Shown here in pieces: positions 28,146 through 54,355 of a stretch of 64,000 nucleotides of DNA. Position numbers and translations under genes: made by a program. Each line of letters begins with the position of its first letter. The stretch's first letter is position 1. The notes beneath the pieces are model-generated. The model made no database searches. It saw only the letters and a list, made by a program, of their open reading frames with translations, and was not told the DNA's origin. Origin of the DNA: Gimesia algae (lineage in GTDB: Bacteria > Planctomycetota > Planctomycetia > Planctomycetales > Planctomycetaceae); contig NZ_CP036343.1 of the NCBI RefSeq assembly GCF_007746795.1, positions 1,864,531 through 1,928,530 of the forward strand, written 5' to 3'.

Positions 28146-31044
28146 GCAATGCCTGCAGATGAATACTGTGAGCCTCAGGGGAATCTCAAAATTCCTGAAG
28201 CCTTTGATCTGCCTCTTCGTACTCCTGTCGGCAGCATATTTAACAGCTGGTGAGACTCCCGATGCAGTAGACAAACACTTTACACTCAAGGTCCTGCCCC
28301 TGCTGCAGACAAAATGCTTCGGTTGCCATGGAAAAGATCCTCAGGACATTAGTGGTGAATACAACATGTTATCCCGCGCGGGGCTACTCACAGGAGGCGA
28401 ATCGGGAGAGACATCGCTGATTCCAGGTAAACCTCAGCAGAGCTCGCTGTACCAGGCTGTCCTGTGGGAAGGCCTGGAGATGCCCCCTAAGGAAAATGAT
28501 CGTCTGACGGCCGTGGAAACGGAACAGATCCGCAAGTGGATCGCAGCCGGAGCCCCGTGGCCCAGTCTCGAGAGACAGAACCAGATTCGTAAAGCAGCAG
28601 CGGCTGTTGTCAGTAATGCAGAAGGGCGAATTATCTCTACCAGCGGGGGAACCTCCGCGGAATGGACCAATCGACGCTATCAACCGGAGGACTTATGGGC
28701 CTTTGAAAAAGTCAGACCCGTCTCTGAGCTGCTGCCTGCAGAACTCACAGCAAATCAGGCCATTGATTATTTCATTAAACAGAAACTGGCAGAGGCAGAT
28801 CTTCCCCCTGCAGCGGAAGCGTCACCGCGTCAGCTGATCATCCGCGCTGCTTATGATCTGACCGGCTTGCCCCCTGCTCCTTCTGAAATCGATGACTTTA
28901 TCGCCGCTTACTCCCAGGATGCAGAGCACGCCTGGGAAGCGCTCATCGACCGCCTGCTGGCAAGTCCGCGTTACGGAGAACATTGGGGGCGTCATTGGCT
29001 GGATGTGACCCGCTATGCTGACACGGGGGGAATGTCGAACGACTTTGAACGCTCCAATATGTGGCGTTATCGGGATTACGTCATCCGTGCCTTCAATAAT
29101 GATAAACCATATCACGACTTCATTATCGAACAACTGGCCGGCGACGAACTGGCAGACAGGTCCGTGGCAACGCGAACCGCTGGAGACCGGAAGACGGTGC
29201 ATCAAACCCAGCTCTCGGGTAAGTATACGGTTCAGGAAGCTGAGTGGATTATCGCAACCGGGTTTCTACGGCTGGGGCCCTGGGATAATGCGATGGTCGA
29301 ACCGGAAGAAGCCCGGCAGATGTATCTTGACGATCTTGTGAATAACACCGGACAGACATTCCTGGCACAGACCCTTCGCTGCTGTAAGTGTCACGATCAC
29401 AAGTTTGATCCGATTCCCACCCGCGATTATTACCGGATTTATGCCGCCTTCTCCACAACACACATGGCGGAGCGTCCCGTCCCTCTGCTCTCCTGCGAAA
29501 ACCGAGAAGGCTTTGAAAATGGGAAAGCGCATGTGGAGCGTATGCTTCAGTTCGCTGTTCAGGAGAAGAACCGGCTCATCCAAAAACGGGAAAACGCAGC
29601 ACGTGCCTGGTTCAGGGAGCATGACCTGCCATACAAAAATGAAGCAGAACGACATAGTCTCTCCGACGACGCCAAACCGCCTCGGCACGTTGGCCTGGAT
29701 CACGTCGAGCAGGGACAGCTCAAGGTGCGCGAACAGGATGAGTGGATCTGGACCCGCCGACTCGAACGGTATCAGCCTATTGCACAGAGTGTCTTTAATG
29801 CAGAGCATTATACCATGCCCTGGAACGGTGCTCGTAAGCTGCGTATCAAACGCAAGCCAGTAAAACAGCAGGTCGTCAATCATATTCTGACAGGTGGTAC
29901 TCTGGATGCTCGCGGCGATGTCGTGCAGCCGGGAGTCCTCAGTGCCGTTTCTATTCCGGCAGGCAGTTCCAGTTCAGACCCCGGTCTGGTGACGGCAGCT
30001 ACGGAAGGTCGGCGGACGGAACTCGCCCGCTGGATCGCTCACCCCGATAATGGCTTGACGACACGTGCCATTGTGAATCGGATCTGGCAATATCATTTCG
30101 GAAGCGGCCTGGCTGCGAATGCGAACAACTTTGGTGCCAAGGGAGCCAAACCGACTCACCCCGAATTGCTGGACTGGCTCGCTGACGATTTTGTAACGAA
30201 TGGCTGGCGCATCAAACGCCTCCATCGCCTGATCATGCTGTCCGATGCCTATCGGCGGAGCTCCATCCCGGCTGATTCACAGCAACTGACACAGGCAGAC
30301 CCGAATAATCGACTCCTCTCCTGCTTTCCGCGCCGGCGTCTGAGTGCAGAAGAACTGCGAGACGGAATCCTGAAAATCACTGGCGAACTGGTGCACTCAG
30401 CGGGAGGTGTCCCCGTCATGCCAGAAATCAACATGGAAGTCGCGCTGCAACCGCGGATGATTCAGTTCTCACTGGCACCCGCGTATCAGCCATCACCCAC
30501 ACCGGCAGAACGAAATCGACGCACAATTTACTCCTACCACGTTCGTGGCCAGGCCGATCCGTTTACGGAACTGTTCAATCAACCGAATCCCAACGAGTCC
30601 TGCGAACTGCGTGAATCAGCGGCGGTCACTCCCCAGGTATTTACCCTGCTCAACAGTGACCAGATGATTGATCGTTCCATCGCATTCGCCCTGAGGCTGC
30701 AGCTGGAACGCCCGACTCTGACCGAACAGATTAACCGGGCCTTTCGCCTGACACTGGGTCGATCTGCTTCGAAGCAGGAACTGAGTCGACTCCAGCAGTA
30801 TGTCACAGACATGAGGGAATATCATGCGGATGTGGTTCCTGAACCAAACCGTTACCCCCAGACAATTACACGATCGCTGGTCGAAGAGTTTTCGGGTCAG
30901 CCTTTCGAATATCAGGAAATCCTGCCTGTCTTCACCCACTACCAGTCAGACAAAAAACCGGCAGATGTTTCCACAGAGACACGGGCGCTGGCAGATCTCT
31001 GCCTGTTATTGTTCAATTCTAACGAGTTCATGTACGTAGAATAG
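28132..31044 (+). CDS. PSCyt1-DUF1549-DUF1553 (planctomycete cytochrome) protein
   Basis: 970 aa with a hydrophobic signal segment at about 20-37. A class I cytochrome-like domain (PSCyt1) carries the haem-c motif CFGCH at 63-67. DUF1549 runs over about 200-430 (LTGLPPAPSEIDDFI, RYGEHWGRHWLDVTRYADT), including CKCHDHKFDP near 420. DUF1553 lies at about 620-900 (LARWIAHPDNGLTTRAIVNR, HPELLDWLADDFV, RRLSAEELRDGIL). The family is very common in planctomycetes and occurs with DUF1501 proteins; its role is not settled, with polysaccharide breakdown or electron transfer at the cell surface suggested. The ATG at 28132 overlaps the previous gene by 14 bp; an ATG at 28159 is a possible alternative. 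Confidence 0.92.
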   Translation: MESLRQCLQMNTVSLRGISKFLKPLICLFVLLSAAYLTAGETPDAVDKHFTLKVLPLLQTKCFGCHGKDPQDISGEYNMLSRAGLLTGGESGETSLIPGKPQQSSLYQAVLWEGLEMPPKENDRLTAVETEQIRKWIAAGAPWPSLERQNQIRKAAAAVVSNAEGRIISTSGGTSAEWTNRRYQPEDLWAFEKVRPVSELLPAELTANQAIDYFIKQKLAEADLPPAAEASPRQLIIRAAYDLTGLPPAPSEIDDFIAAYSQDAEHAWEALIDRLLASPRYGEHWGRHWLDVTRYADTGGMSNDFERSNMWRYRDYVIRAFNNDKPYHDFIIEQLAGDELADRSVATRTAGDRKTVHQTQLSGKYTVQEAEWIIATGFLRLGPWDNAMVEPEEARQMYLDDLVNNTGQTFLAQTLRCCKCHDHKFDPIPTRDYYRIYAAFSTTHMAERPVPLLSCENREGFENGKAHVERMLQFAVQEKNRLIQKRENAARAWFREHDLPYKNEAERHSLSDDAKPPRHVGLDHVEQGQLKVREQDEWIWTRRLERYQPIAQSVFNAEHYTMPWNGARKLRIKRKPVKQQVVNHILTGGTLDARGDVVQPGVLSAVSIPAGSSSSDPGLVTAATEGRRTELARWIAHPDNGLTTRAIVNRIWQYHFGSGLAANANNFGAKGAKPTHPELLDWLADDFVTNGWRIKRLHRLIMLSDAYRRSSIPADSQQLTQADPNNRLLSCFPRRRLSAEELRDGILKITGELVHSAGGVPVMPEINMEVALQPRMIQFSLAPAYQPSPTPAERNRRTIYSYHVRGQADPFTELFNQPNPNESCELRESAAVTPQVFTLLNSDQMIDRSIAFALRLQLERPTLTEQINRAFRLTLGRSASKQELSRLQQYVTDMREYHADVVPEPNRYPQTITRSLVEEFSGQPFEYQEILPVFTHYQSDKKPADVSTETRALADLCLLLFNSNEFMYVE

Positions 31045-31054
31045 AATTCAGATC

Positions 31055-32464
31055 ATGCACACGATACCACACCAGACACGTCGGGAAGCACTCTTCAGCC
31101 TGGGTGCCTCACTGGGGAGCCTCGCTTTCACTTCACTACTGGGCGCAGAACAGACTGCGGCTGCCAGCGATGTGGGACCGTTGACTCAGAAAACGCCCCA
31201 GCGCCGCGCCCGGGCTAAAAACGTGATCATGCTCTTCATGGAAGGAGGACCCGGGCAGATGGATACATTCGATCCCAAGCCCGAACTGACCCGGCTGCAC
31301 AAACAGGAATCCAAACTGACCGGCGGCCTGGAAAAAGGCTTCAAGTTTTTCGTCGGCAGCCCATTTGGATTTCAAAAGCCCGCTGAGACGGGAATCGAAA
31401 TGTGTGATCAATGGAAATACCTGTCCGATCCATTCGTCGCCAATGAACTCTGTAATTTCCGTGGTTGTCAGGCCGAATCGCTGAACCATCCGGAAGCCCT
31501 GTTTCACATGAATACCGGCAGTCGACTGGGCGGCGATCCTGCTCTCGGCTCCTGGGCGACTTACGGACTGGGAACCGAGAACCAAAATCTGCCCGGTTAC
31601 GTCGTGATGACCGAACTCGCACTGCCTCAGGGTGGCCCCACCAACTGGAGTAACGGATTTCTGCCTCCCCATTTCCAGGGTACGCGTCTGCGTCCGGAAG
31701 GTTCTCCAATTCTCGACCTCGCCGCTCCGGGATATAAATCGCGACAACACCAGCTCCGCGCACTGGAGGAACTATCGCGTCTGAACGCAGACCATCTGCA
31801 ATCGCTCGGCGTGCAGGATCAGAAACTACAGGCCCGTATGGAGAGCTATGAACTTGCCTTTCGCATGCAAACTGAAGTCCCGGATGTCCTGAATCTTTCA
31901 CGCGAAACAGCCCGGACACAGGAAATGTACGGGTTAACTGAACCAGAAACCAGTGGCTTTGGGCGCCAATGCCTGATGGCGCGACGACTGGTCGAAAACG
32001 GGGTTCGCTTCGTGCAGATCTTCAGTGGCGGCTGGGACAGTCATGACTACCTGGAACGGGGCCACTCCGCGCGGATTAAAAGTGTCGACAAACCGATGGC
32101 TGCCTTGATCCGCGATCTGAAAAGCCGTGGCATGCTCGACGATACACTCGTCATCTGGACGGGAGAATTTGGTCGAACCCCGGACAATAATAAACGGGGC
32201 GGCGTCTATTCCCTGGGACGCGGACACAACAATCAGGCGATGACCATGCTGCTCGCTGGCGGAGGAGTGAAACCGGGAGTCGTCGGGGCCACCGATGAAC
32301 TCGGCGCCCGCGCAGTGGAATGCGTACACCCAATTCGTGATCTCCACGTCACGCTACTGCATCTCCTCGGCCTGGATGACAATAAGCTGACCTATTTCCA
32401 CGCAGGTCGCTTCAAACAGCTCAGCCAGTTTGGCGGCCAGATGATTCAGGAAATGATTGCCTGA
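31055..32464 (+). CDS. DUF1501 protein with Tat-like signal
   Basis: 469 aa. The N-terminus TRREALFSLGASLGSLAF has a twin arginine (residues 9-10) and a hydrophobic stretch, suggesting Tat export. The body follows the DUF1501 pattern (alkaline-phosphatase-like superfamily): IMLFMEGGPGQMDTFDPKP, GFGRQCLMARRLVENGVRF, GWDSHDY, LVIWTGEFGRTPDNN, GRGHNNQAMTMLLAGGGVK. It lies 10 bp after the DUF1549/1553 gene and is the last gene of the operon, ahead of a strong terminator. It is the intact counterpart of the relics at 21787 and 44250. Confidence 0.92.
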   Translation: MHTIPHQTRREALFSLGASLGSLAFTSLLGAEQTAAASDVGPLTQKTPQRRARAKNVIMLFMEGGPGQMDTFDPKPELTRLHKQESKLTGGLEKGFKFFVGSPFGFQKPAETGIEMCDQWKYLSDPFVANELCNFRGCQAESLNHPEALFHMNTGSRLGGDPALGSWATYGLGTENQNLPGYVVMTELALPQGGPTNWSNGFLPPHFQGTRLRPEGSPILDLAAPGYKSRQHQLRALEELSRLNADHLQSLGVQDQKLQARMESYELAFRMQTEVPDVLNLSRETARTQEMYGLTEPETSGFGRQCLMARRLVENGVRFVQIFSGGWDSHDYLERGHSARIKSVDKPMAALIRDLKSRGMLDDTLVIWTGEFGRTPDNNKRGGVYSLGRGHNNQAMTMLLAGGGVKPGVVGATDELGARAVECVHPIRDLHVTLLHLLGLDDNKLTYFHAGRFKQLSQFGGQMIQEMIA

Positions 32465-32589
32465 TGACTCAATCTTGATCTTTCTTCATGGCAGCTGTCT
32501 CAGCCCAAATGTCGAATTCAATGGAACTTACTGTGATATTTATCAGCCCGTAAAACTGCCTCAAGAGCGACACCCGCCGCCTCCACTTT

Positions 32590-34022: not shown

Positions 34023-34379
34023 TCAGTCCTCGTCGCGGTCTCCCTGGTACTTCTTGAAATTCTCCGCCTGTTCGAAGATTTCTTTGTAGACCTCGTCCCG
34101 GTCGATCGGCGGGTAGCCGTTACCAGCCAGTAGAATGATCTGATCCACCTTCAGCTCGGCTTTGATGTCGCTCCACTGGCTCCAGTCGGTGAACCGGGCC
34201 TTGTCGTCGACGATGATTTTTACCTTCTTCGCCAAATCGAGCAGCTTCTCTTCGGGGTATTCGAAATCATACTTCACCGTCAGGGATTTCAGGATGTCGT
34301 AAAACGCCTTCTCTTCGAAATCGATGCCCAGGTCGGGGGCGCCCCCCTTCATCAATTTGAAGCTGATCGAATGGATCAA
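34023..34379 (-). pseudogene. Remnant of an older type I hsdR (C-terminal DUF3387 part)
   Basis: 118 codons match the end of a different HsdR subfamily: FEEKAFYDILKSLTVKYDFE, LDLAKKVKIIVDDKARFTDW, then LKVDQIILLAGNGYPPIDRDEVYK in two steps and IFEQAENFKKYQ near the end. The nuclease and helicase parts are missing, and the complete hsdR just upstream (34430-37528) has its own, different C-terminus. I read this as the 3' stub of an earlier system. Its partner is the hsdM stub at 42128-42700 on the same strand, on the far side of the complete cassette. Confidence 0.82.
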
Positions 34380-34429
34380 TGGTATCTAAATTGCCCTGAG
34401 TTTTCAGCAGCGAGTTATATTTGAGATCC

Positions 34430-37400
34430 TCAGACCTTGTCACCAACTTCTTTATACTTTTCTACAAACACAGCGATCTTCTGAAAAACGCTTTGCTTCT
34501 TCGTCAGGTACTGAGGATTGAGCGGGCTCATTTTAGGGAGAACGGCGTTGAGCTCGGTACCATTTTCGCTGGCATACCTTCGTTTTAGCGAGGCACTGAT
34601 ATATCGCCTGGCCGCTTCTAAGTTCAGGTTTTCGTCAGCAATCAGTTCCCCAACCTCGCGCTGTTGCTCTGCCCGTGCAAAGCTGTAAAAGGCATCCATC
34701 ACGCTGGATTTATCGGGAAGTTCATCCAGATCCGCCTGGTTAATAAAATCAACTACCAGACTTTCCGTGGCGCGTATGTCAAAACTGGCACGAATCAAGC
34801 GACGCATTTCATCAACCAAATCCGCTTTGTTCTTAGTTTTCTTATTGTGCTCGAAAATCAGTTCCAGAATATAATCCAGATTGATCTCCTGTGACTTCAG
34901 CAGGTCGATCTCAAATACCACGTCAGTCCAATCAATCTTGGACTGCTCATTTTCACTGCCCGCCTTTTCACGCCGCAGCCAGTCCCGGATGTCGTTGTAA
35001 GTGGAGCGGTAATCCTGAATTTTACGATCGGCAGGTAGCGTAATACTCTGCAATGTGGCCAGATCATCATCGCTCAAGTGATGCTCAGCTTTGAATTCTT
35101 CGACTTGCTCTGGGCTATCCCAGTCGATGCTTTGCAACGCTTTCAGGCTGGCAAATTCGTCGTAATTTTGCAGGATATTTTCAACCCGCAAATACTGGCC
35201 AAACAGCTTCACGAATTCCTTCTTGTCTTTCTCTTTAACGATTTCTTCCGGGGCGGGAAACCGTTGTTCCAACTCCGCGACGACCTCCTTAAAACCACGC
35301 CGCGCTTCGCCGGTTACCAGATCGGTGAAGCCCTCCATGTATTCCTTGTAGCTTTTTTCAAGCACCACGTTCTTTGTGTTGCTGTCTCCAAACATAGTGA
35401 TCGCGTCGATGGTGGCCGTTTCCAAATCGCGAAAGGTAACAATATTGCCAAACGTTTTGGTGGCGTTATAAATCCGGTTCGTTCGCGAATAAGCTTGAAT
35501 CAAACCGTGATAACGGAGGTTTTTATCGACGAATAGAGTGTTCAGTGTCGGTGCGTCGAAACCGGTCAGGAACATGCCCACTACAATCAGCAAATCAATG
35601 TCCTGGGATTTCACCCGTTTGGCCAAATCACGGTAGTAATTCTGAAAGCCCTTGCTGTCCACACTGAAGCTGGTTTTGAAGTGGTTGTTGTAATCATTAA
35701 TCGCCGCATTCAGGAACTCCTTAAAGCTGCTGTTCATTGCCGATACTTCAAAGCTCTCATCCTCAATATCGCCTACCGCATCCTGCTCTTCGTTAGCAGC
35801 AAACGAAAAGATAGTGGCAATTTTCAGACGTCTATCGCTGCCTGCTTGCAGATCGTTCAACTTTTCGTAATACAGCTTCGCCGCGTCCACGCTGCTGACC
35901 GCAAACATCGCATTGAACCCAGTCCCGTTCGCCCCTAAACGGTGCGTTTTCTGTCGGAAGTGGGTCAGGATGTATTGTGAGATCTCTCGAATGCGTTCCG
36001 GGTGCAGGAGTGCCTCACGGTTCTCTGCCGCGGTTAGCTTCTTCTCGTCCTGTTCGGTTTCAATCGACTTGAACTGTGGACGGACATCGTTGTAGTCCAC
36101 TTTGAACTTGAGTACCTTTTCATCCCGAATTGCGTCGGTGATCACATATGTATGTAACTGTTGGCCAAACACGCTGGCAGTGGTATCAGCACCTGACGCG
36201 TTTTCCGGAAAAATTGGGGTGCCGGTAAAGCCGAACTGATAATACCGTTTGAATTTTTTCTGGAGATTCTTTTGGGCTTCACCAAATTGGCTGCGATGGC
36301 ATTCGTCAAAAATAAAGACGACTTGCTTCTGGTATATCGGCAGCTCAGATTCGCTCTTCATCAGGTTGTTGAGCTTTTGGATCGTGGTAACAACGATCTT
36401 GTTGTCGTCCTTGTCCAGGTTGCGTTTAAGGCCAGCGGTACTGTCTGAACCGTTGACACTGTCGGGTGAAAAACGCTGGTACTCCTTCATCGTCTGATAG
36501 TCCAGGTCTTTACGGTCGACGACGAAAAACACCTTGTCGATAAAATCCAACTCGGTTGCCAGGCGGGCTGCTTTGAAACTGGTCAAGGTCTTGCCCGAGC
36601 CAGTAGTGTGCCAGACATAACCGCCGCTTTCCGGTTTGCTCCAGGTTTTAGCAACATAGGAGCTTTTGATTTTCCACATGATCCGCTCGGTAGCGGCAAT
36701 CTGATAGGGCCGCATCACCAGCAGGGTGTTGCTGGCATCAAATACCGAGTAGTTAAGTAGCACTTCGAACAAGGTCTTCTTTTCAAAGAAAGTCGCGGTG
36801 AAATCCTTTAGATCCTTGAGCAGACTATTATCCGACTTTGCCCAGTTCATGGTGAAGTCAAAACTGTTCTTATCCCGCTGGGTGGTGTTAGCGAAGTAGC
36901 GGGTATCGGTTCCGTTCGAAATGACAAACAGTTGCAGATATTTAAATAGAGAGTTCTCGCTGTTAAAGCTTTCCTTACTATAGCGATGCACTTGATTAAA
37001 GGCCTCGCGAATCGCCACGCCTCGTCTTTTCAGCTCCACCTGTACCATCGGTAGTCCGTTTACCAGAATCGTGACATCGTAGCGGTTGGCATGGCTGCCG
37101 GTCTGCTCGAATTGCCCGATTACCTGCAGCTTGTTACGAGTCAGTTTTTTTTTGTCCAGCAGGTAAATGTTCTGGATGTGTCCATCATCAAAGACAAAAT
37201 CGAGGATATGGTCATCGTGGATCTTGCGGGTCTTATCGACGATGCTCTCGCTGGGTTTATCGAGATAAGTCTCGACAAACCGCAGCCATTCCCCATCAGC
37301 AAATTCCACGTTGTTCAACTTCTGTAAGTGCGTGCGTACATTAGCAAGCAATGCCTCTTGAGAATTCAAGTCGGTCCGGTACTCATAGCCTTGGTTCCCC

Positions 37401-37528
37401 AGATCCTGAATGAGTTCCCGTTCCAGATCAGCTTCGCTTTGGTAGCTTTCGGGAACAATCCTTTCCCGATCGTATTTCTCCAGTATGATGAAATTTTTCG
37501 ATTCGGCTATGGGGTTGTAATCAATCAT
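34430..37528 (-). CDS. hsdR: Type I restriction enzyme R subunit (type IC-like)
   Basis: 1,032 aa, close to the EcoR124I R subunit (about 1,038 from memory). Nuclease core: D near 150 (YDVTILVNG) and VELK near 163-166. Helicase: Walker [11 protein letters not shown] near 307-316, DECH box near 410, motif [12 protein letters not shown]. It translocates DNA and cuts away from the recognition site when that site is unmethylated. I use the ATG at 37528 ([13 protein letters not shown]) because homology starts there; it overlaps the stop of the ATPase gene by 8 bp. Last gene of hsdM-hsdS-ATPase-hsdR. Confidence 0.95.
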
Positions 37529-39134
37529 CTGATTCTTGCTCCTGCCAGAACCGGTGTGTACTAACAATATGGTCTATTAACTGCTTCAGCACTTTTTGAT
37601 CCTGTGGCTCAAGATCAGGTACTTCTTCTGCAGAATGTTTGGAATGACTTGAGAAATTCAAGATCCGCTTGGCATACGGATTGGGCCGACCATCTTCAGA
37701 GGACGGGAGTAGATGCTCCCACCGTTTATGTCCAAGAAATGTCGCCGTTTTTTCGAGGATATTCCTCAACAAACTGAAGTGATACTTTTCGACCTGTCCT
37801 GAATCAATCACTGCCTTGAGTTTTGCTAAAAGATGAAGATGGTATGAAAACGGAGAATCATTTGGTTGTGGAACAAGTAGATACCCACCTTCTTCTGATC
37901 GTTCCAGTCTTGATTTGCCAAACCACTTGCCTCGCCAGTAAGGTCGCCTCGACTTGTCATCACTTACAAGTTCATTGCAGAGTACGTTGTAGAAAACAGG
38001 ATTGTGGGTTGATATGATAAACTTGACGCTTGATTCGTTCAATCGGATAAGCTCGGCAAGGTCAACGGCCAATTCAATCACATGGTTGTCATCTAATGAG
38101 CTGACCGGATCGTCGATAAAAATGTACTCCAGCTTATCAAAAACATTTGTCTCTCGCTCGTCTGGTTCGGGTACGTTAAGAATGGATACGACTTGCTCCA
38201 GCAGAGTATAAAAGACACTCCAGATAAAATTGCTTTCTTCACCCTTTGACAGTTTCAGATTACCTGAATCAACATTGTCACCAGTCTCAATGCTGAAGGT
38301 TACCTCTACGATTGATTGGACGACAATCTTCTTGCCGTTTTGGTGTCGCTCTCTGGATTCGGAATGAAATCGCGGTGTGAGTTTGTCAGAAGTGTAACGC
38401 TGAAAGTTGGCGATGACGTTTTGATCTTGCCCCTGGTCAACGAGAATCCAATCCGTGAACGAGTTCGGCTGAATCTTCAATTTGGGCTCGGCATCGAGGG
38501 TCAAATCGTTGTCCCAATAGAACAAGTCTTCGGTAAACGCGTTGTAGTAGAGAATCTTATCCCGCGACAACACTGTTTCGTCAACGTCATTCTTAGGTGA
38601 AATGAGTTGTTTGAACTCCCGAGACAAGCGGGTTTTTCCTGTGCCATTGAAGGCGTAAATCAGCTGCACCTTTTGGTCGGCACCTTTTAGTTGATGGACA
38701 ATGCCTGTGAGGGTTTTTAAATACGCTTTATAAAAATTCAGGATATCACATTCTTTAATAGCCCAGTGGGTTCTATAAAATTCAAAATCAGACTCGTTAA
38801 TGTTCAATTCCTGCCAATTCTTTTGTAGAACCCCTTTAGTAAGAGGATAATTCTCTTCACTGAGTTTGAAATAAATTCGCAATCTATTTGGCTGAACCTC
38901 AATGTTCGTGATTTTTCCTATTCTGGTGTCAGCATTTTCATGCTCAACAGAGAAAAGTGTTGGTAGTGTTTTTAGCTTATTACGAGCATCTTGATCTAAT
39001 GTCTGGAATTGTTCTTTGAGATGATCTTCCGTGTATTCAAGAAATCTGTCTCTCGGGAAGTCCACATAACCACTATCGCCTGACCAAAATTTAGGGTCGC
39101 TATGCATAATGAGATTGTATAGTTTCTGGCTCAT
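37521..39134 (-). CDS. PrrC-like AAA ATPase, candidate anticodon nuclease guard of the type I system
   Basis: 537 aa ABC/RecF-type ATPase: Walker A FNGTGKT (about 161-168), signature LSKGEE (about 292), Walker [13 protein letters not shown] (about 336-347), H-loop STHNP (about 374). The C-terminal region contains R457-x3-E461 (RNILE) and H497 in NFSSHSKH. PrrC anticodon nuclease uses an Arg-x3-Glu and a His about 32 residues on. In the E. coli prr locus, prrC also lies between hsdS and hsdR of a type IC system. PrrC is held inactive by the restriction complex and cuts tRNA-Lys when a phage protein disables that complex. ATGA overlap with hsdS, 8-bp overlap with hsdR. The R/E/H pattern also occurs in other AAA_13 proteins, so nuclease activity is inferred. 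Confidence 0.68.
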
Positions 39135-40342
39135 ACCTCTGCCACCTTCACCGGTTTCTGGAAACTCAGCAGTAGATCACGATAGTATTCGTATTGCTGT
39201 TGACGCAATTCAATTTCACTCGGCAAGTCTTCGCTGATCGAGTTGGTCAGGGCGTCGAATTTGTCAAGGATATTAACGATGCGATTTTGTTCTGCAATTG
39301 ATTTCTTAGGATTATTGGGATGCGGTATTGGTATTCGCACCTTAGACATCCCGTCCATTAGAAGTCTTTTAACTTTTCCTCTTGATACATGCTTTGCTTT
39401 CTCTGAAATGAACGTTTCTGTTTGCATGCAGTAAGATACAAATTTCGGGTTCAATGAGTGACGGAAAGCATAGCTATCATCGTGAATGGCAACGTTCTTA
39501 TTTCCTAGCCACGCGACTGCCTTGCCGACGTCTTCGACCGTTTCACCCACACCTGCAATAACTACGTCCTCTGGATGAGCATAGCTCAATGAATCAGCCA
39601 ATTCAGAGCGAACCTGGGACAGTGCTCTTTCGGCTGAAACACCGTAGTGTGTGTAGATCTCACCATAATGGATCACGTCAATTCCATCATGATCCACATA
39701 GTCGCGTTTGGTAAACCGTTTCCCACGTATGAATTCTCCTAGCTCCCCCAGCGGTTTCCATTCGACTTCGCCATCTTCAAAACTCAACAGATGATCGCGA
39801 TAGTAGTTGTATTGTTTCTTGCGGGCGGTCAACTCGGCGGTCAGTTCGGCGGTCAGTTCGGCGGTCAACTCGGTAAACGTGTCCAGAATGCGGACAATTT
39901 CGGCCTGGATCTCAAGCGATTTTGTTTGATTTGACGGGCACGGGACTGGGATTGGTGTCTCTCGCGCCGTTGACCAGTGCCGTTTATAACTCAATTCTTT
40001 TTTGTAGAAATTTTGAAAAGCGTAATAGACGTACTTGGCGTTAGCGGAAATTGGCCTGAGCACCTTCAATCCATCGGCACCTTGGATGAATGGAAAATCT
40101 ACGTACTTTATATGCTCAGAATGGTCGCCAAAGATTACATATTTACCAGTTTCAATTGGGGTTAAGTTTTCATCGGTGTAGCCAGCAATATATTCCACGC
40201 CCTGGTCAACGATTGGAAGTTTTCCTGTGTCGCGATAGGCATCTCGTTTAACCTTTGAAGGCGCTGTTATAGTTTTAATCAACTCCCCTAGCGGCTTCCA
40301 TTCCACTGGTGCCCCATTCAGTAGCTTGTCCATAAAACTCAT
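39131..40342 (-). CDS. hsdS: Type I specificity subunit with TAEL repeats (type IC-like)
   Basis: 403 aa, the size of EcoR124I HsdS (about 404 from memory). There are two target-recognition domains, each led by VEWKPLGEL (about residues 15 and 200) and followed by a conserved helix ending in [11 protein letters not shown] or [11 protein letters not shown]. Between them the central helix carries TAEL three times after FTEL. In the EcoR124 family the number of TAEL copies sets the spacing between the two half-sites. I start at the ATG at 40342 (MSFMDKLL), 5 bp after the hsdM stop; a TTG at 40351 is less likely. The two half-site sequences cannot be read from the protein by eye. Confidence 0.95.
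39827..39874 (-). repeat. 12-bp tandem repeat, 4 units, in hsdS
   Basis: Four units of GGTC(AACT/AGTT)CGGC: outer units have AACT, inner two have AGTT. On the coding strand they encode [15 protein letters not shown]. Gain or loss of one unit keeps the frame and lengthens or shortens the central helix by four residues. Confidence 0.92.
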
Positions 40343-40347
40343 GTTTC

Positions 40348-41910
40348 TCAAGCCTCGACCTCCACTCCATCAATCTCCGCGACAATTGAATCGATCTCCG
40401 CACGCAATTGATCGATCCTGGCCATGGTTGTTTTGAGCTCGGCGTTGAGTTGAACAATATCCACCTTCTCGCGTGTATCATTGGGTTCGACATAGCTGCT
40501 GACCGACAGGTTATAATCGTTTCCAGCAATGGTTTCGAAAGAGACCGATTGGGCAAAGTGATCGATGTTCTCCTTGCTATCGAAGGCCTGCATGATGGCT
40601 TCGATGTGCTCGTCGGTCAGGATGTTGGTGTTGGTGGCTTTTTTAAAATAGTCCTCTCCACTCGCATCAATGAACTGAATGTTCGAATCGGTTTTGTGTT
40701 TGGATAACACCAGAATATTGACCGCGATGGTGGTGCCATAAAACAGGTTCGGAGCCAGTGAGATCACCGTTTCCACGTAATCGTTATCCACCAGATACTT
40801 TCTGATTTTCTGCTCGGCTCCCCCGCGGTAAAAAATGCCGGGGAAGCAGACAATGGCCGCGCGACCTTTGCTGGACAGGTAACTGAGGGCGTGCAGCACA
40901 AAGGCGAAGTCGGCTTTGGATTTGGGAGCCAGTACACCGGCAGGAGCAAAGCGATCGTCGTTGATCAGGGTGGGGTCGTCGCTTCCCTTCCATTTCACTG
41001 AGTAGGGAGGATTAGAGACGATGGCGTCAAAGGGTTTCTCGTCGCCGAAATGCGGTTCGGTCAGGGTATTTCCCAGTTGGATGTTGAACTTGTCATAGTT
41101 GATATTGTGCAAGAACATGTTCATCCGGGCCAGGTTGTAGGTCGTGTGGTTGATCTCCTGGCCGAAAAAGCCCTCTTCAATGACATGGTCGTCAAAATGT
41201 TTTTTGGATTGCAGCAACAGCGAACCGGAACCACAGGCAGGATCGTAGATCTTATTAACGCTGTCCTGTTTATGCATGGCCAGCCTGGCAATCAGTTTAG
41301 ACACATGCTGCGGCGTAAAGAATTCACCCCCTGATTTGCCCGCGTTGGCCGCGTAGTTGGAGATCAGGAACTCGTAGGCATCGCCGAATAAATCGATCTG
41401 GTTACTCTGAAAGTCACCAAAATCCAGACCAGCCACTCCTTTCAGTACGTCCGCCAATCGGGAGTTTTTGTCCTTCACTGTGTTGCCCAGGCGGTTACTG
41501 GTAGTATCAAAATCGGCAAACAGGCCTTTGATATCCCCTTCAGACGGGTAGCCGTGGGCCGAAGCTTCAATGGCGGCAAAGATGGATGCTAAGTCTGTGT
41601 TCAAACTTTCGTTAGTGTTGGCAGCTTTGGCAATGTTCACGAAGAGCTGGCTGGGGTAGATGAAGTATCCCTTGGTTTTGATGGCATCGTCTTTGATCTC
41701 GGGGGTGATCACTGTATCGGGAAGTTCAGCATAATGAATGCTCTCATCGTCGGCTTCGATGTAAAGGGCAAAGTTCTCACTGATAAAGCGGTAAAACAGT
41801 GTGCCCAGGACATACTGTTTGAAGTCCCATCCATCCACGGCACCACGTACGTCATTGGCAATTTGCCAGATCTGGCGTTGCAGGGCGGCACGTTGTTGGG
41901 AAGCGTTCAT
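40348..41910 (-). CDS. hsdM: Type I DNA adenine methyltransferase subunit (type IC-like)
   Basis: 520 aa, identical in size to EcoR124I HsdM as I recall it. N-terminal HsdM domain ([27 protein letters not shown]), then the SAM site [12 protein letters not shown] near 226 and the catalytic NPPY near 300, giving N6-adenine methylation. The ATG is at 41908-41910, with AAGGA about 11 bases upstream. It is the first gene of the cassette; the hsdS ATG follows its TGA by 5 bp. Confidence 0.95.
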
Positions 41911-41959
41911 ACGATTGTTGTTCCTTCTTAATTATCTGACCTGTCACATGGGACATGGC

Positions 41960-42113
41960 TTACGTTTTGGGCTTGGCTGCCTTCTTCAAAAAAACGTCGA
42001 GGTCGCTCCGTTTGAACAGTCGATAGCCGTACGCCGGATTCCGATGCATCGGAAAGTCTCTATGAACCGCCCAGCATTTCGGCTGTCTTCATGTAATCGC
42101 TCAATTTTGGCAT
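41960..42113 (-). pseudogene. Broken excisionase-like (MerR-type HTH) gene from the older type I locus
   Basis: The reverse strand starts MPKLSDYMKTAEMLGG and then loses frame. In the next frame it continues HRDFPMHRNPAYGYRLFKRS, then DLDVFLKKAAKPKT and a stop. Together these are the two ends of a small DNA-binding protein of the excisionase family (typically MPKLSDYLKT...AEYLG...IPxHRNPxNGYRLFxRxDL); the middle helix region is deleted. Such genes often sit between hsdM and hsdS in another subgroup of type I loci, which fits an origin in the older system. Confidence 0.75.
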
Positions 42114-42127
42114 TTCAGTTTCCTGGG

Positions 42128-42700
42128 TTAATTCCAGTTGGTTAAATGCGACCGCTCATAGTCTACAAAAGCCTGCACGCCTGCGATACGCATTGAGTCT
42201 GATTTAACTGATGAAAAACCACTGCTGGAGAAAGGAAGTTCACTTCGACAATCAAGTTCCCAATGTTGATGCCACCGCGTGCACGAAGTAAACGCTGCAA
42301 AGTCGAGGCCCAGACGCGAGAAGTAGTTGTCCGGCAGGGCACCTTTGAGCGAGGCGTTGCTCTTTTCGACGGCGGTCAGAGCCGAGTCGATCTTGATGGC
42401 GATATCCCCCTGCTTGGCCTGCTGCTGGATATAGCTCCAGCGGGAGGTCTCGGGCAGGAAGAAGACGTTTTTCATGGCGTAGAATTCGACGAGGTCGGTG
42501 TATTGCGCTTTCCCCTCCGCGATGAGTTCCGCACGGCGTTCTTCGAATTGATCGGACACGAACTTGAGGAAGATCAGGCTGAGGACGACGTGTTTGTATT
42601 CGGAAGACTCCACACTGCCCCGCAGCCGATTCGCGGAATCCCAGAGGGACTCCTCAAACCCTTTATCACTCTTCTTGGGGGCTGCTTTTTTCTTCGCCAT
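42128..42700 (-). pseudogene. Remnant of an older type I hsdM (N-terminal part)
   Basis: 190 codons, of which about the first 133 match the N-terminus of a different HsdM subfamily: GFEESLWDSANRLRGSVESS, EYKHVVLSLIFLKFVSDQFE, EFYAMKNVFFLPETSRWSYI, LKGALPDNYFSRLGLDFAAF. After that homology stops and no SAM or NPPY motif follows. AAGGAAC precedes the ATG, so a truncated peptide could still be made. It pairs with the hsdR stub at 34023-34379 as the two ends of one earlier operon. Confidence 0.87.
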
Positions 42701-42798
42701 GGGGGTTCCTTGATGTTGCTCTCTGTAACTACTGCGAAAGGTTCAAAACGATTTCTACCACGAAATTCACGAAAAGACACGAAAGGCTGGCTGACTTA

Positions 42799-43950
42799 TC
42801 AGACGGTGTTGACTGGTTCCTGCAGGGTTTTCTTCATCTGTTCTGCGGCTTCGAGCAGTGGCTGTTTAAAGGTTTTTTCCAGTCGGCTCATATGCTTGAT
42901 CATCCAGTCAATCAGTTCCGGCCAGTTTTCTTTGTCGTAGCCATCAATCTCGAGCGGGTACTGGATACGCGAGACTTTTTTATCATCATTGCGATACCAG
43001 GTTAACGGATACCCGAACTTATCTTCCAGGATTTCTTTTTGCGAGGCTAACGCATCAAAGATCAATTTGTTTTCTTTCAAATCAGAACGTCCCATGATAA
43101 CTTCAACGCGTGATTCCGATTTTCCAAAGATCAGGGTAAAGGTGCAACCACTGACACCTGAGCCGGCACTGATCCATTGGTCTTTACTGGGGCTGACATT
43201 TTCGAACAGGTGGCAATCACTTTTGTGTAAGGCATTGACTGCCTGCTCCCAGTATTGGAGACGAATACGATAGCGACTGTGCTGTTTACCGACCGTCTCT
43301 TTTTCCTCCTTGGCTTTCGCGTTGATGCTGATCATCAACTCTTCGGCTTCCGGCGTGGGGATGATCTGTTCGACGTTGAGGTACAGGTCGTTGTCATGGC
43401 GATAAGGAGTGACTTTCATGCACTGCAGCGAGATACCGTTACCCAGCAGCCAGAGTGCCGTGCTGGTGACCTCTTTACGGAAATTCGCGGCGACAAACAT
43501 CAGCCGCTGTGTATTCGTGCTGTTGAGCACTACTTCTTCCAAATCGGAGAACTCCAGAAATTCGACGACATTTGCGGCGGCGTCTTCGTTGCTGCGGCCG
43601 CTTTTGCTTAAGTATTCCTGGTAGGCCTTGATGATTTGTTCTTTGGTGAAGGTGGAACAGTAGCTGGCGTATTTGAGGGCCTGCCAGACGACGTCGCGGC
43701 CGGAATCGTCCAGTTTGTTTTCGATGATGACCAGGTTGCCGTCTTTGTCGAGTGCCAGCAGATCCAGACGTTCTTTGGTGTCGTCGAAGCCGTCAAACTC
43801 TTTCTGGATGATCAGCAACTCTTCCCCCAACGCGGCGGGCGTGTGGGCCAGCCATTCCTGCAGGTGGTGCCGTTCGGTAAAACCGAGTTCTGAGAATTTG
43901 GGGGAGTCGACTTCAATAATCCGGTTCGCTGCCTGGTCGATCTTATACAT
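42799..43950 (-). CDS. DUF4268 protein with PD-(D/E)xK-type nuclease domain
   Basis: 383 aa. Residues about 20-100 look like a NucS/DUF91-type nuclease fold: RLDLLALDKDGNLVIIENKL, where the D and the ExK (ENK, about 77-80) would be catalytic, then QALKYASYC. The C-terminal part (about 215-370) matches DUF4268: RYRIRLQYWEQAVNALHKS, FGKSESRVEVIMGR, LTWYRNDDKKVSRI. Proteins like this are often found near restriction or other defence genes; the role is unproven. It lies upstream of the old hsdM stub on the same strand, separated by 98 bp containing a TACCACGAAA...CACGAAA repeat motif. Confidence 0.8.
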   Translation of the reverse strand: MYKIDQAANRIIEVDSPKFSELGFTERHHLQEWLAHTPAALGEELLIIQKEFDGFDDTKERLDLLALDKDGNLVIIENKLDDSGRDVVWQALKYASYCSTFTKEQIIKAYQEYLSKSGRSNEDAAANVVEFLEFSDLEEVVLNSTNTQRLMFVAANFRKEVTSTALWLLGNGISLQCMKVTPYRHDNDLYLNVEQIIPTPEAEELMISINAKAKEEKETVGKQHSRYRIRLQYWEQAVNALHKSDCHLFENVSPSKDQWISAGSGVSGCTFTLIFGKSESRVEVIMGRSDLKENKLIFDALASQKEILEDKFGYPLTWYRNDDKKVSRIQYPLEIDGYDKENWPELIDWMIKHMSRLEKTFKQPLLEAAEQMKKTLQEPVNTV

Positions 43951-44249
43951 GGGCCATCTCTGCTACTGCATCTACGAAAAATTCATCGGAGAGCCAATGA
44001 GGAGTCAAAGGTTGTGTGCACGAATCCCCAGTGTAGCAAATGGTTACCTGATAGCAAGTTAGCGGTTGTAAAGTGGTCGGTAGTGAGTACCACAGACAAC
44101 GAGTTTCGCGAACAGAATTAAGAGTAAGATCCGCTCAGAGGACGTTTCAAAGTTGAGCGGAGATCTGAGTTGTCTTCACAAGAATTTCAATTGGACAAAC
44201 GACCTAAAGTAATTGTTCCAAAGCGTCACAAGCTATTGACGTGCTCCCT
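43951..44249. other. Non-coding gap
   Basis: No gene seen. Contains TTTCGCGAACAGAAT (44104-44118), a relic also found as TTTCACGAACAGAAT at 48413 and 50283. Confidence 0.4.
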
Positions 44250-44816
44250 TTAAACGAGATCCAACAGGACATGTCCCTTCCGGAACACCGGCAAGGGGCG
44301 GCCGGAACTCGTATATAACAGAGTGTCCGGGGCAATGCCCAGCTGGTTCAGAATTGTTGCATTCACATCGGCAGGCGAACACACTGCAGAGACAGGTTCC
44401 GAACCAGTCTGATCCGTCGCCCCGTAGACAGCCCCCTGTCGAAAGCCCCCACCGGCAACCAGGACACTCATCGTCCGCGCCCAGTGATCGCGTCCCCCCT
44501 GGCAGTTGACCACCGGAGTCCGACCGAACTCGCCGGCGCAGTACACAATCGTTTCCGACAACAGTCCGCGCGTCTTCAGATCCGAAATCAAAGCAGCTAA
44601 CGCCCGGTCAAGCTGTGGCAGTAGCGATTCACGCAACTGGGCAAAGTAGGGATTCTGTTCCGATACCAGCCAGTCGTAAAACTGTTTCCGCAGATCCTCC
44701 TGCGGGTTGAAAGCATCGCTACCCAGTGCGCGTGGCGGCACGGACGTCCCCGCTGCCTGCCAGCACTGCGAGCACAATCCGTATTCGGCAGCGGCCAGAA
44801 ATCTGAAATGAATCAT
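44250..44816 (-). pseudogene. Fused remnant of DUF1553 and DUF1501 genes
   Basis: One frame carries pieces of two families. Residues about 25-62 (VPPRALGSDAFNPQEDLRKQ, FYDWLVSEQNPYFAQ) match the start of DUF1553 (PPRxLGGxA...D.R..LADWL.S..NP.FA). From about residue 63 (LRESLLPQLDRALAALISDL, TIVYCAGEFGRTP, GGRDHWARTMSVLVAGGGF) it is the C-terminal third of a DUF1501 protein. The haem, DUF1549 and most DUF1501 parts are gone. The natural order would be DUF1549/1553 then DUF1501, so a deletion of several kb joined them. The 5' end overlaps the truncated M56 gene. Confidence 0.8.
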
Positions 44817-45816
44817 TCAGCAGCATTTCCACCCTTCGATACAGACTCGATCGGGTTTCCGCCATCGTGAGTGCTCCCATGGATAGTTTGACTTTCTGTT
44901 GTGAGAAAGCCACCAAAGTCGCCGCGTATTCCGCAGGCTGGTCTGTCTGACAGGCGGCAAACTGATCTGCTATCTGGTCCTGGCTGAGCCGCAGCTCCCG
45001 TTTCAGTTTCCAGAAGAAAGGTTGTGGCCACAATAGAATCTGGCACAGACTGGCCAGCTGCCAGGTCATCAGGTCACGTCTCTGAATATGTGACCATTCA
45101 TATGCCAGGCTGTGCTGGAGTACCAGCTCATCAGGGCCTTCGACCACGCTTCGCGGCAGCAGAATGGTGGGGCGGAAGACACCGCAGACCAGGGGCACCT
45201 GGATCCGGTCCGACATGCTAAAGCGAATATCGATACGCGATAAGAACGCGGCAAACAATGTCCGGACACGTGTACTGCTCGATCCTGTCAGCGGTGTTGA
45301 CTGAGAGAGCAGTCGCCAGGTCAGAGCCAGACCTGTCAGGAGGTAAACCAGTTGCACTGCAGAAATGAAAACGAATCCCGCGACCGTCCATAGCTGGACC
45401 GTCTGCCACACTCCCCGGGCTGACTTCACTCGAGGAACGCTGGCCTGAGCAGTGCTGGCCGGCAGTGAAGCCCCCTCGTTCACATCAGCAATTGTGGTTT
45501 CAGCAGTAACAGCAGGAGGTATGTTATGTGCAATATGGACTCCCTCAGGTTCGATGCTGCTGACATCCGGTGCGGGAGTTTTGAGAGTTTCCACAGTCGT
45601 CTCAGCCGGCAAGATCGGCACCAGGATAGCTGGTAGCCAGCTGAAGTTGATCAGCAGCAGCACGGCCAACAGAATCGAAAGCGACAGCTGAATCAGCCGC
45701 ACACGTTCCAGTGGCTGCGTTATCCGCTGGAGCAGCAGCAGGCTCACCCCCAGCAGACAGAATGCAGGCAGTGAGAATCGTACAATCAAATCAAACAGAA
45801 ACTCGACCGATATCAT
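44719..45816 (-). pseudogene. Truncated BlaR1/M56-type membrane peptidase
   Basis: Membrane helices lie at about 5-28, 40-65 and 145-170. The M56 domain follows: VCGVFRPTILLPRSVVE, then LAYEWSHIQRRDLMTW (about 236-250), and LRLSQDQIADQFA. The zinc motif HExxH reads YEWSH here, so the first histidine is lost (TAT instead of CAT, one base change). After about residue 340 the frame enters DUF1553/DUF1501-derived DNA and is no longer M56-like, so the sensor region and C-terminus are missing. The start overlaps the blaI stop as ATGA. It is probably not a working protease. Confidence 0.78.
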
Positions 45817-46202
45817 GAGTCTTTCTCCCTGTTTTCCTGCTTGGCCTTACGGGCTTTTGCGATCAGTTTTTCCAGATCACGCATTTCTTCAGGCGAGACA
45901 TTCTCTGCCGAAAGCATGCTGAGTACGAATTTATCGAGGGCACCATCAAACACTTTTTCCACAAACCGGCTGGTCGCCTTCTCCAGCGTATACACTGGAG
46001 TGTAGTAGTCTGTGCGTCCTTCACTCCGCTTTTTGACGAAGCCTTTTCTGCACATGATGCGCACCAACGTCTGCACCGTTGTAAACGCACATTCTCCCCC
46101 CGGGCAAAGAGCCTCGTGAATGTCGCGGACCTTAGCTTCGCCCAGATTCCACATCACTTTCAGCAGATCGAGCTCACGATCACTTGGCGTGAGGGTTGTC
46201 AT
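45813..46202 (-). CDS. blaI: BlaI/MecI-type repressor
   Basis: 129 aa from the ATG at 46202, which follows GGAGG with good spacing; an upstream start would bury that site. Winged helix: LTPSDRELDLLKVMWNLGEA, VRDIHEAL, FTTVQTLVRIMCRKGFVKK. Dimer tail: FVEKVFDGALDKFVLSMLS. BlaI-type repressors are inactivated by cleavage through their M56 partner. As the adjacent M56 gene is truncated, this repressor may now be uninducible. A perfect palindrome lies 32 bp upstream. Confidence 0.9.
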   Translation of the reverse strand: MTTLTPSDRELDLLKVMWNLGEAKVRDIHEALCPGGECAFTTVQTLVRIMCRKGFVKKRSEGRTDYYTPVYTLEKATSRFVEKVFDGALDKFVLSMLSAENVSPEEMRDLEKLIAKARKAKQENREKDS

Positions 46203-46233
46203 CAGGAACCTCCATTTGAAATCTCCACACACA

Positions 46234-46252
46234 ACTAAACTAATAGTTTAGT
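46234..46252. promoter_or_regulatory. Candidate BlaI operator (perfect palindrome)
   Basis: Nine-base arms ACTAAACTA and TAGTTTAGT around one central base, in the promoter region of blaI. Position and symmetry fit an autoregulatory site; the sequence itself is not one I can match to a published operator. Confidence 0.7.
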
Positions 46253-46866
46253 TTAGCAAGACCAGGTACTCTGTCAATACGGCATTTTGAGAAAATCTCA
46301 AAGACATCAGCAACAAATACCATCTCAGATACGAAGATGCGTGTGTCGCTTTGGACTTTGTATTGTCCGTCAGCAATCCACAGAACTTGCAGTTGAAATC
46401 CTGGGAGAAGAGGAAACCAAAATACAAGACAAGGGTCAGCCCGCGAATATGTGTGAGTTTCACTAGCGCATAGGGAGTCCACGAATTTGGTCGTATTAAG
46501 ACACGTACCGGAATACATATGAGTTGACAGGATTACAAAAGCGACCGGGATAACGGGGGGCGAGGAGAGGAGCATGACTTCAGGACCGACTGCGCCGAGC
46601 CATCCCGTTGATCCCATTGTTATGTGCCGTTTCGAAACAGTTCAGGCTCGCATACAGCAATAAGCAGGGTACGAGGAGAGTGAGGAAATCACCAATGCGA
46701 TCACAGTCCCTGCAGCTCAACTGAGTTTGGGATGTTCTATGAGTTCCGTGAGCAAGAGACTTTATTGATTTTACTCCGCAGAGAGACGCAGATGTTTCAG
46801 ATGGTTTTCAATATAGAATATTTAATATGAATTGCCCCTGCATCGACATAACTGGTTTGTAAAGCG
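46253..46866. other. Non-coding region, 0.6 kb
   Basis: Short overlapping frames on one strand show no family features. Around 46455-46495 it carries a partial copy of the 96-bp repeat (GGAGTCCACGAATTTGGT at 46474-46491). CCGCAGAGAGACGCAGA occurs near 46776. Confidence 0.5.
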
Positions 46867-47949
46867 CTACTTCTCCGTCTCAAACATCTTCCGATAATCT
46901 ACCGCCGCAAACTCATCAGACAACTCATCAGCAGTCTTCCCTGCTAACGCACCGTCATGAGCAACGAAGCGTGCAGCAAATTGTAATGGTTTGTCTTTGG
47001 TAACACGCACGTCGTGACCGAGTGTCGGTGAGAGAATCATCAGTCCCCAGCCGCGGCTGTAGAATTCATTGCGGGTATTGTTGGGGTGGCTAAACAGAGC
47101 GATCCCCGCTGTCTGATTGCCGATGCGTCCAGTGCAGTCGATCCAGCGAGGGGCTTTACGATTACCTGAGATATCCCAATAATTGCCATCAGGATTCTTA
47201 CGTTTTTCAGAATCGTGCATCATGCCACCATCATCGGGATCGATTAAATCGTTCACGCGCACCCCCATTAGCGAATGTCGATCTGCTTTCAATGTGAGTG
47301 ATTGTGAATGCGGGCTGAGTTGAGTGAATTGATCAATAATTGTATAGGGACCACGTTGGAACAGTTTGTACCGGCGTTGTTCGCTGATGACGGACTTGCC
47401 TCCAGAACTTTCTTTATCGCGTAATTGCCAATCAAGTATCAAACGCAGTTGAATTTGGTCTGTCACCTTCCAGTCTGCTTTTACAATCTTCTGAATGCCC
47501 GAAGGGCCCATCTGGAACAGGTTGTGTGTCTTGTGAAATTTGTCTATGCGTTCTGTATTGGGATAGGGCAATTGTCGATAAAAATCGACAGCATGATCAG
47601 TTCCGTCAACATGCACCTTGCCGTGACCGGTCATGATCGACTGATGGTGAATGAAGCAATACTGGTGCGTATCGGTCACTGGAACTCCTGATGGTGTGCA
47701 GACAGGATACAGTTCCGGTTTCAATCGAAAGTGCGTGGGATAATCGGTGGGGAAAATCAATGCAGCCATGTAGCGGTCACCCTGCATCAGTTTCAATCGA
47801 CGCGTCTGCCCACGGAAGGCAACCTCATCAACTACGGCATATTTTTTCTCACTAACAGGTGCATCACCCCGCGTAAGTGATGTGAGCATCGCAGTCGAAA
47901 CACCCGCTGCCCCCTGAGAAAGAAAATTGCGTCGTGATAGTTCAAACAT
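46867..47949 (-). CDS. DUF6807 (PmoA-like) protein with Tat-like signal
   Basis: 360 aa. The N-terminus SRRNFLSQGAAGVSTAML (twin arginine at 6-7) suggests Tat export. The body fits the DUF6807 family, wrongly called PmoA in many annotations: TDTHQYCFIHHQSIMTGHGK, VHVDGTDHAVDF, LGVRVND-like LMGVRVNDLI, IGNQTAGIALFSHPNN and WGLMILSPTLG. Members occur beside carbohydrate-use genes in planctomycetes; the activity is unknown. It stands alone, with no close same-strand neighbours. Confidence 0.8.
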   Translation of the reverse strand: MFELSRRNFLSQGAAGVSTAMLTSLTRGDAPVSEKKYAVVDEVAFRGQTRRLKLMQGDRYMAALIFPTDYPTHFRLKPELYPVCTPSGVPVTDTHQYCFIHHQSIMTGHGKVHVDGTDHAVDFYRQLPYPNTERIDKFHKTHNLFQMGPSGIQKIVKADWKVTDQIQLRLILDWQLRDKESSGGKSVISEQRRYKLFQRGPYTIIDQFTQLSPHSQSLTLKADRHSLMGVRVNDLIDPDDGGMMHDSEKRKNPDGNYWDISGNRKAPRWIDCTGRIGNQTAGIALFSHPNNTRNEFYSRGWGLMILSPTLGHDVRVTKDKPLQFAARFVAHDGALAGKTADELSDEFAAVDYRKMFETEK

Positions 47950-48430
47950 GTAATCTCCTTAAACTGTGTTCTGGACCACGGATTACACGGATTGTATTTA
48001 GCCACAGAGATCACAGACCATACTCACGCTGTTCGCAGGATTTGCTGAACGCGTTGTTGGGGGTCACCATGCCAATGTGCTATGAGCTTACAATTTCAAA
48101 CTACGTTCAACCATGAACGTCGTCGAGTACAAATAGACTGTCGAACCTTGAGTCTAACAGTCAATTGATCTTTGACAACAAAAATCAGGTAAAATAAGTA
48201 ACGCGGATCGCGCGACTTTTTTACGAACAGAGTTGGGAATGGGGAGCCTTAAATTTGGGTGCGGAATAACATTGGGTTGAACGGGAACGCCGACAGGGAT
48301 TCTGATCGACATCTTCGCGTGCCCCCTGATTCCGCGAAAAGGAATGGGTTCAGTTATCGCGTTGGGAGTCCGCGAATTGGGTATTTTTTCCGGAATCCAG
48401 TAATCGTATGAGTTTCACGAACAGAATCGC
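47950..48430. other. Non-coding region holding one copy of a 96-bp repeat
   Basis: No gene seen. The region separates two reverse-strand genes and must hold the DUF6807 promoter, which I cannot place. The repeat is at 48287-48382. Confidence 0.45.
48287..48382. repeat. 96-bp dispersed repeat, copy A
   Basis: Aligns without gaps to 52765-52860, from ACGCCGACAGG to GGAGTCCGCxAATTGGGT. Both include TTCGCGTG, CCTGATTCC and CGAAAAGGAATGGGTT. Confidence 0.8.
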
Positions 48431-50875: not shown

Positions 50876-50878
50876 CTA

Positions 50879-54343: not shown

Positions 54344-54355
54344 GTCTTTCTCCAT

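Follow-up and report, generated by a model that had tools for sequence, protein, structure and literature searches.

A prrC-bearing EcoprrI-type operon probably replaces the interior of an older type I restriction-modification operon in Gimesia algae

The restriction-modification (R-M) system EcoprrI, with its anticodon nuclease PrrC, has the gene order hsdM-hsdS-prrC-hsdR, a PrrC that combines an ABC-ATPase with an R-x3-E...H triad, and an R subunit of the EcoR124 type (PMC2610378, PMC3874165). The same gene order, PrrC architecture and R-subunit type were found in a cassette of the planctomycete Gimesia algae (genome G000; 7.93 Mb, single contig), within a stretch of 64,000 bp (contig NZ_CP036343.1, positions 1,864,531 to 1,928,530), hereafter called the window, whose numbering is used throughout. 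Unlike EcoprrI, the cassette encodes a PrrC with an extra N-terminal domain of ~135 amino acids (aa), which 7 of 80 relatives share (these 80 being the best of 500 confirmed stretches), and it has a helix-turn-helix (HTH) leader upstream. On both sides it is flanked by pieces of a different type I operon. We consider it probable (roughly 0.78) that an EcoprrI-type operon, acquired horizontally, now replaces the interior of a type I R-M operon of another subfamily.

Two further described cases are close to this locus. In the enteric immigration control region varied R-M and defence systems replace one another between conserved anchors (PMC3874165, PMC12707154), whereas in G. algae the replaced operon has itself left its two ends as the flanking pieces. 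In G. kaustophilus an anticodon nuclease gene, rloC, likewise lies beside a dead hsdR 3' piece; that relic shares 98% identity with a complete hsd locus of the same genome and rloC is located within a transposon (PMC2610378), whereas in G. algae the hsdR relic does not come from the cassette's own system, and across the cassette lies a relic of 5' hsdM. Within the accessible open-licence literature on PrrC, planctomycete type I R-M, hsd replacement and relics, and planctomycete HTH, MerR or BldC defence operons, neither the arrangement nor the leader was found reported, which is no proof of absence.

Between 43950 and 34023, in minus-strand order, the locus contains a DUF4268 gene, then the 5' stub of an hsdM followed by filler, a direct-repeat element and a broken HTH gene, the four genes hsdM, hsdS, prrC and hsdR, and finally the 3' stub of an hsdR. 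The open reading frames (ORFs) and coordinates of the original prediction were confirmed, and Pfam matches agree with its placement of the two stubs, hsdM 5' and hsdR 3', on either side of a complete set and in the order of an operon: the ORF at 42128-42700 matches HsdM_N (PF12161, 82.1 bits) and the ORF at 34023-34379 matches PF11867, the C-terminal end of type I R subunits (92.6 bits). The two stubs are best described by other PADLOC models (M stub PDLC03019, R stub PDLC03040) than the cassette subunits (HsdM PDLC03022, HsdR PDLC03048).

The stubs were compared with a sister species, G097, which carries on one strand an operon bounded by full-length genes for HsdM (520 aa) and HsdR (1067 aa), both of the PF11867/PDLC03019 subfamily. 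The M stub is 88% identical in aa to this HsdM over 123 aa, corresponds to its residues 1-133 and ends abruptly; against the cassette HsdM only 34% over 38 aa was obtained (E 7e-7). The R stub is 83% identical to the G097 HsdR over 108 aa, and nothing significant was found against the cassette HsdR (best match E 1.6). When the full systems of G097 and the cassette are compared, identities over the aligned parts are 30% (M) and 27% (R). These alignments rule out that the stubs are degraded copies of cassette subunits and support the proposal that they derive from unlike subfamilies. As judged from sequence, both stubs belong to a subfamily other than that of the cassette, and they are identified as the two ends of one old type I operon. 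Because a sister species keeps the losing system with both ends at full length, the junctions here can be compared with the old operon, and the displacement of one restriction system by another can be read at this locus.

Homology to the old hsdM covers 42302-42700 (codons 1-133) and ends at 42302. The ORF tail at 42128-42301 is not hsdM, so that only part of the ORF first taken as the stub is hsdM-derived. DNA identity to G097 over 42302-42793 is 83%. Of the two breakpoints originally proposed, the one at 34380-34430 stands, and that on the hsdM side moves from 41911-41960 to 42301/42302, a shift of ~340-390 bp. At the other end, a 52-bp spacer (34378-34429) separates the stop of the cassette hsdR from the old hsdR, of which the last ~108 codons are kept at 34023-34379; the spacer did not match the 3' flank of the related cassette in Rubripirellula obstinata. 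The R stub itself is built from two joined pieces, 34026-34349 (G097 HsdR residues 960-1067) and 34328-34377 (residues 822-838). Between them 121 HsdR residues have been lost, and the join is at a shared 9-bp microhomology. Consequently the locus does not consist of two junctions alone, since a third lies inside the R stub.

Little of the old interior could be recovered. Besides a 172-bp transposase-like piece at 50871-51040 no old interior DNA was found in the window, and no close match remains there to the old hsdS, the AAA and HNH genes or HsdR residues 1-821; the other tblastn matches of old subunits in the window (27-30%) are the cassette's own genes. A net replacement of the old interior, as originally proposed, is thus well supported by the alignments. 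The M stub gives no clear sign of long relaxed decay, because its ratio of nonsynonymous to synonymous substitution rates (dN/dS) is 0.11 to G097 and 0.19 to the related genome G107, compared with 0.10 between G097 and G107 over the same codons.

The cassette was described earlier as hsdM-hsdS-ATPase-hsdR. It is indeed complete and in that order, and the gene named ATPase encodes PrrC (PADLOC, 471.9 bits). Its minus-strand genes are hsdM (40348-41910, 520 aa), hsdS (39131-40351, 406 aa), prrC (37521-39134, 537 aa) and hsdR (34430-37567, 1045 aa). The HsdR has an EcoR124-type C-terminus (PF12008 EcoR124_C, 234.5 bits; TIGR00348, 681.9 bits) and is accordingly related to type IC. All four genes were found in 75 of the 80 relatives and were ordered hsdM-hsdS-prrC-hsdR in every one of these 75, with gaps above 500 bp, which may hold extra genes, in 12 between hsdM and hsdS and in 15 between prrC and hsdR. 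In the other five no hsdM was found in the DNA covered and in one of them also no hsdS. The triad, defined after PMC2610378 as R-x3-E...H, corresponds to Arg457-Glu461-His497 and is invariant in all 80 relatives. Among the 80, R. obstinata (L131) is the closest in HsdM and HsdR, with identities over aligned parts of 88% (HsdM), 86% (HsdR), 72% (PrrC) and 46% (HsdS). The cassette is therefore classed by gene content, order and motifs as an EcoprrI-type operon. Its four genes are all open and the catalytic motifs of M and R are present; they are presumably functional. None of the 80 other prrC loci showed a match to the old M stub, the old R stub or DUF4268 (E<=1e-8), with DNA covered for at least 2 kb past both hsdM and hsdR in 56 of them.

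A broken excisionase-like gene at 41960-42113, first counted as a part of the old operon, turned out to belong to the cassette. It is a small HTH_17 gene with an internal deletion and an in-frame stop. In R. obstinata an intact HTH_17 gene (ORF of 73 aa; HTH_17 50.7 bits, MerR 37.6 bits), encoding a lone small MerR-related HTH protein, directly precedes hsdM of the same cassette, which rules out the HTH gene as a remnant of the old operon. It was not found in the old loci of G097 or G107 (tblastn, E<=1e-3). The pseudogene and the surrounding DNA align to R. obstinata with 76% identity over 179 bp, and both keep an element at almost the same distance, 73-75 nt, upstream of the HTH gene. Therefore the cassette extends to at least 42188, followed by filler at 42189-42301 up to the old hsdM. 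With its leader broken, the operon in G. algae may have lost its regulator.

The relatives also indicate to which locus the flanking pieces belong. The DUF4268 gene (42799-43950, minus strand) is intact and is a PADLOC candidate (PDC-S11). The window is colinear over 42302-44070 with DUF4268 and hsdM of G107 (86.8% over 1816 bp), and DUF4268 is 94% identical between the two (dN/dS 0.07). Therefore DUF4268 and the M stub belong to one old locus. Between hsdM and hsdR, G097 has a transposase-like ORF, hsdS, an AAA-ATPase ORF and an HNH-like ORF, names given by reading and not by family scan; its S frame (400 aa) lies after the transposase-like ORF and may be shortened at the 5' end. An uninterrupted old operon in a relative, which had been suggested as a check, was thus found with full-length ends and in the same orientation near the core block, but with a transposase-like ORF inside it. 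The core block, which serves as right-side anchor (56124-64000), is orthologous to G106 4208971-4216830 (91%) and, piecewise, to G097 3875186-3882791 (68-77%). It lies 16 kb from the old operon in G097 and 13.4 kb from the stub in the window, in equal orientation.

Several observations weigh against the replacement. For 44250-56124, which separates the stub from the core block, blastn gave no match to the G097 counterpart; in G106 the left flank (30093-32489) is found at 2.48 Mb, so that identity of the site is anchored on one side only. Since the old locus is 83% identical between G097 and the window and the core block only 68-77%, the old locus itself must have moved or been exchanged. Moreover, relics also arise without this cassette: a second old-hsdM 5' stub is present in G000 (4262794-4262995, L053; residues 1-73 in two pieces, within another reading frame), and old hsdR scraps lie in G106 (4124379-4124504) and G038 (3933589-3933663). 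G059 carries codons 14-107 of an old-family hsdM. In G107 (C75:53186-57109) hsdM (residues 1-519) has been fused by deletion into hsdR, giving one open frame of 1330 aa, and hsdS, AAA and HNH are gone from their place. From these remains in G107, G106, G038, G059 and the second G000 stub, the old family is seen to decay often.

For the replacement itself, we propose that a self-contained unit, comprising the HTH leader with its upstream element, hsdM, hsdS, prrC and hsdR, arrived by horizontal transfer, and that the 5' part of the old hsdM, the 3' part of the old hsdR and the upstream DUF4268 gene persist as landmarks. The junctions were probably made by illegitimate recombination, as no shared sequence was seen at the two main junctions, and probably in more than one step. 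The search for a shared target or short homology there, made by eye, was negative. A history of several steps is at least as likely as the single step originally envisaged, because of the extra deletion in the R stub, the decayed HTH gene, the collapse in G107 and the scraps in G106, G038 and the second G000 stub.

Three routes subdivide the net replacement and share its probability; they are not alternatives to it. The cassette may have entered an intact old operon, after which the flanking old genes were trimmed by deletions. This is the best placed of the three and still possible rather than probable; further deletions are indeed present in the R stub and the HTH gene and a similar interior loss relative to G097 lies adjacent at 44250-46255, but two independent trimmings would each have had to end within ~50-115 bp of the cassette and leave it unharmed, and no intermediate piece is left. 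A deletion of the interior could instead have come first, joining 5' hsdM to 3' hsdR, with insertion of the cassette at or near the scar later. Such a collapse is displayed by the 1330-aa frame of G107, and the R stub here has its separate microhomology deletion; however, the later insertion would need to have found the short scar at random or through some unknown preference, and the breakpoints are unlike those of G107, so that this order of events appears doubtful. A single event with two junctions, swapping the old interior in one step, is considered unlikely: the clean order and strand, the lack of old interior and a complete cassette with its own 5' element speak for it, but the two main junctions revealed neither shared target nor homology, and the R stub requires a further event. 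That unrelated relics came to be adjacent by chance in a junk-rich defence island is very improbable, since, although the same old family has left pieces elsewhere in G000, G106, G038 and G059, the stubs are complementary ends of one operon in correct order, strand and position and the upstream DUF4268 neighbour is conserved in G107.

With the interior replaced by the EcoprrI-type operon, a switch of methylation specificity may be inferred. G000 has a second type I system at ~4.42-4.43 Mb, for which a methylation motif of its own would be expected. If the cassette acts as EcoprrI does, which is assumed here, its R-M enzyme would restrict unmodified DNA and keep PrrC inactive; inhibition of the enzyme by a phage is predicted to free PrrC, which would cut tRNA and stop translation.

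The N-terminal extension of PrrC (38730-39134, residues ~1-135) is shared with relatives L109-L114 and L124. It matched no Pfam family above cut-off. Within 294 genomes of the phylum it has three carriers, G000 and two others, and in the latter (L220, L221) the domain is fused to different C-termini, which gave weak PADLOC matches to TIR-type effectors (27.3 and 24.1 bits, respectively); the L221 C-terminus also matches PDC-S35 (124.3 bits). The predicted structure of PrrC was poor (mean predicted local distance difference test, pLDDT, 54.6; predicted template modelling score, pTM, 0.42; 14 sequences), and by sequence no relative was found in the PDB at E<=0.01. A PrrC form with an added domain common to TIR-like effectors may represent a second trigger for the classic suicide nuclease.

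The leader is found beyond the prrC loci. With the R. obstinata HTH as query, 76 of the 294 phylum genomes, including that of the window, gave matches, of which many are weak. For the ten best foreign HTH loci only (L189-L198), PADLOC was applied to the same-strand gene downstream, which in nine is a defence gene: HmaA (L191, L193, L195), HmaC together with HmaA (L192), PglW (L197), DrmD (L198), a type I methyltransferase (L190, and L194, which was scanned from mid-gene only) or a type I restriction endonuclease (L196); L189 gave none. The element in the window (42160-42177, 47-64 nt upstream of the HTH start, minus strand) is a direct repeat, imperfect and with a period of 10 bp. A consensus of 18 bp was built from the window and R. 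obstinata alone, and a match was counted at up to 4 mismatches upstream. Besides the window and L131, it was matched at nine of 18 leader loci (L189-L195, L197, L201; shuffle P <= 0.004). Among the remaining nine, two give borderline values (L200, P 0.04; L207, P 0.015) and seven show nothing (P 0.26 or more), the defence-linked L196 and L198 among them. Three further strong HTH matches fall outside the 18, and none of 11 loci with weaker HTH matches has the consensus. A stricter consensus occurs once each in 6 of 243 loci, always before the HTH. The test was not blind, as upstream regions had been compared before the consensus was fixed, and the shuffles preserved base composition only. Two proteobacterial prrC loci (L126, L129) also have a small HTH gene 5' of hsdM; these genes were rejected as counterparts, with 38-39% identity over 26-31 residues and no element.

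Of the described regulators, BldC is likewise a lone small HTH protein, MerR-like, and binds direct repeats (PMC5859096), as would fit the direct-repeat element upstream of the leader. The period differs, however, 10 bp here versus the 9-bp BldC sites, and the leader heads defence operons. Regulators at the head of diverse immune operons have been described as BrxR/CapW and CapK/CapS (PMC9122601, PMC13373217); of these, BrxR and CapW carry a WYL domain and CapK/CapS pairs a kinase with a repressor, whereas the leader has a lone HTH_17 domain. The loci point to a small regulator, accompanied by a common upstream element, at the head of several unrelated defence operons within a single phylum. 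A wider reading is offered only tentatively and is rather unlikely to hold: several kinds of defence operons in the phylum may travel as 'header plus body', with a BldC-like HTH and a direct-repeat operator driving type I R-M, PrrC, Hma- and PglW-type bodies, and type I hsd operons may be landing places whose interior is replaced, the hsdR 3' end being left as a common scar (the PrrC cassette here, a Druantia-like pair in G106). The DrmD and type I restriction endonuclease loci, which lack the element, count against it.

The G106 case lies at C1:4124379-4131930 (L105), where a DruE-like gene (138.7 bits) is followed by a UvrD-like gene on the same strand as the hsdR end. HsdR residues 1024-1065 (71%) are found directly behind the UvrD-like gene and overlap the end of its frame. 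By this arrangement the Druantia-like pair is taken as a second defence operon abutting this hsdR 3' end; no hsdM stub was detected across from it at E<=1e-3 in 4116000-4218900. The idea that stubs are always operon ends was tried and dropped. Among 17 genus genomes the short HsdR fragments (at least 70% identity) are C-terminal in three of three (G000, G106, G038), but outside the genus interior or C-terminal pieces of hsdM occur in G014 and G506, and the idea is not used as evidence.

In the wider window no tRNA genes were found as integration sites, and promoter and terminator scans were uninformative, with fewer sites than in shuffled sequences. The match to the closest relative, G106, ends at 32489, and the flanks of the window sit there at 2.48 Mb and 4.21 Mb. 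At 44250-46255, beside the cassette, BlaI/BlaR1-like and DUF1501 pieces (named by reading) are joined in an interior-loss scar, with ~3.3 kb and 1.6 kb absent relative to G097 4180242-4187130. Short dispersed intergenic repeats are common to the old loci of three genomes, at 33357, 33586 and 33911 in the window, at 3859438-3860225 in G097 and downstream of hsdR in G107.

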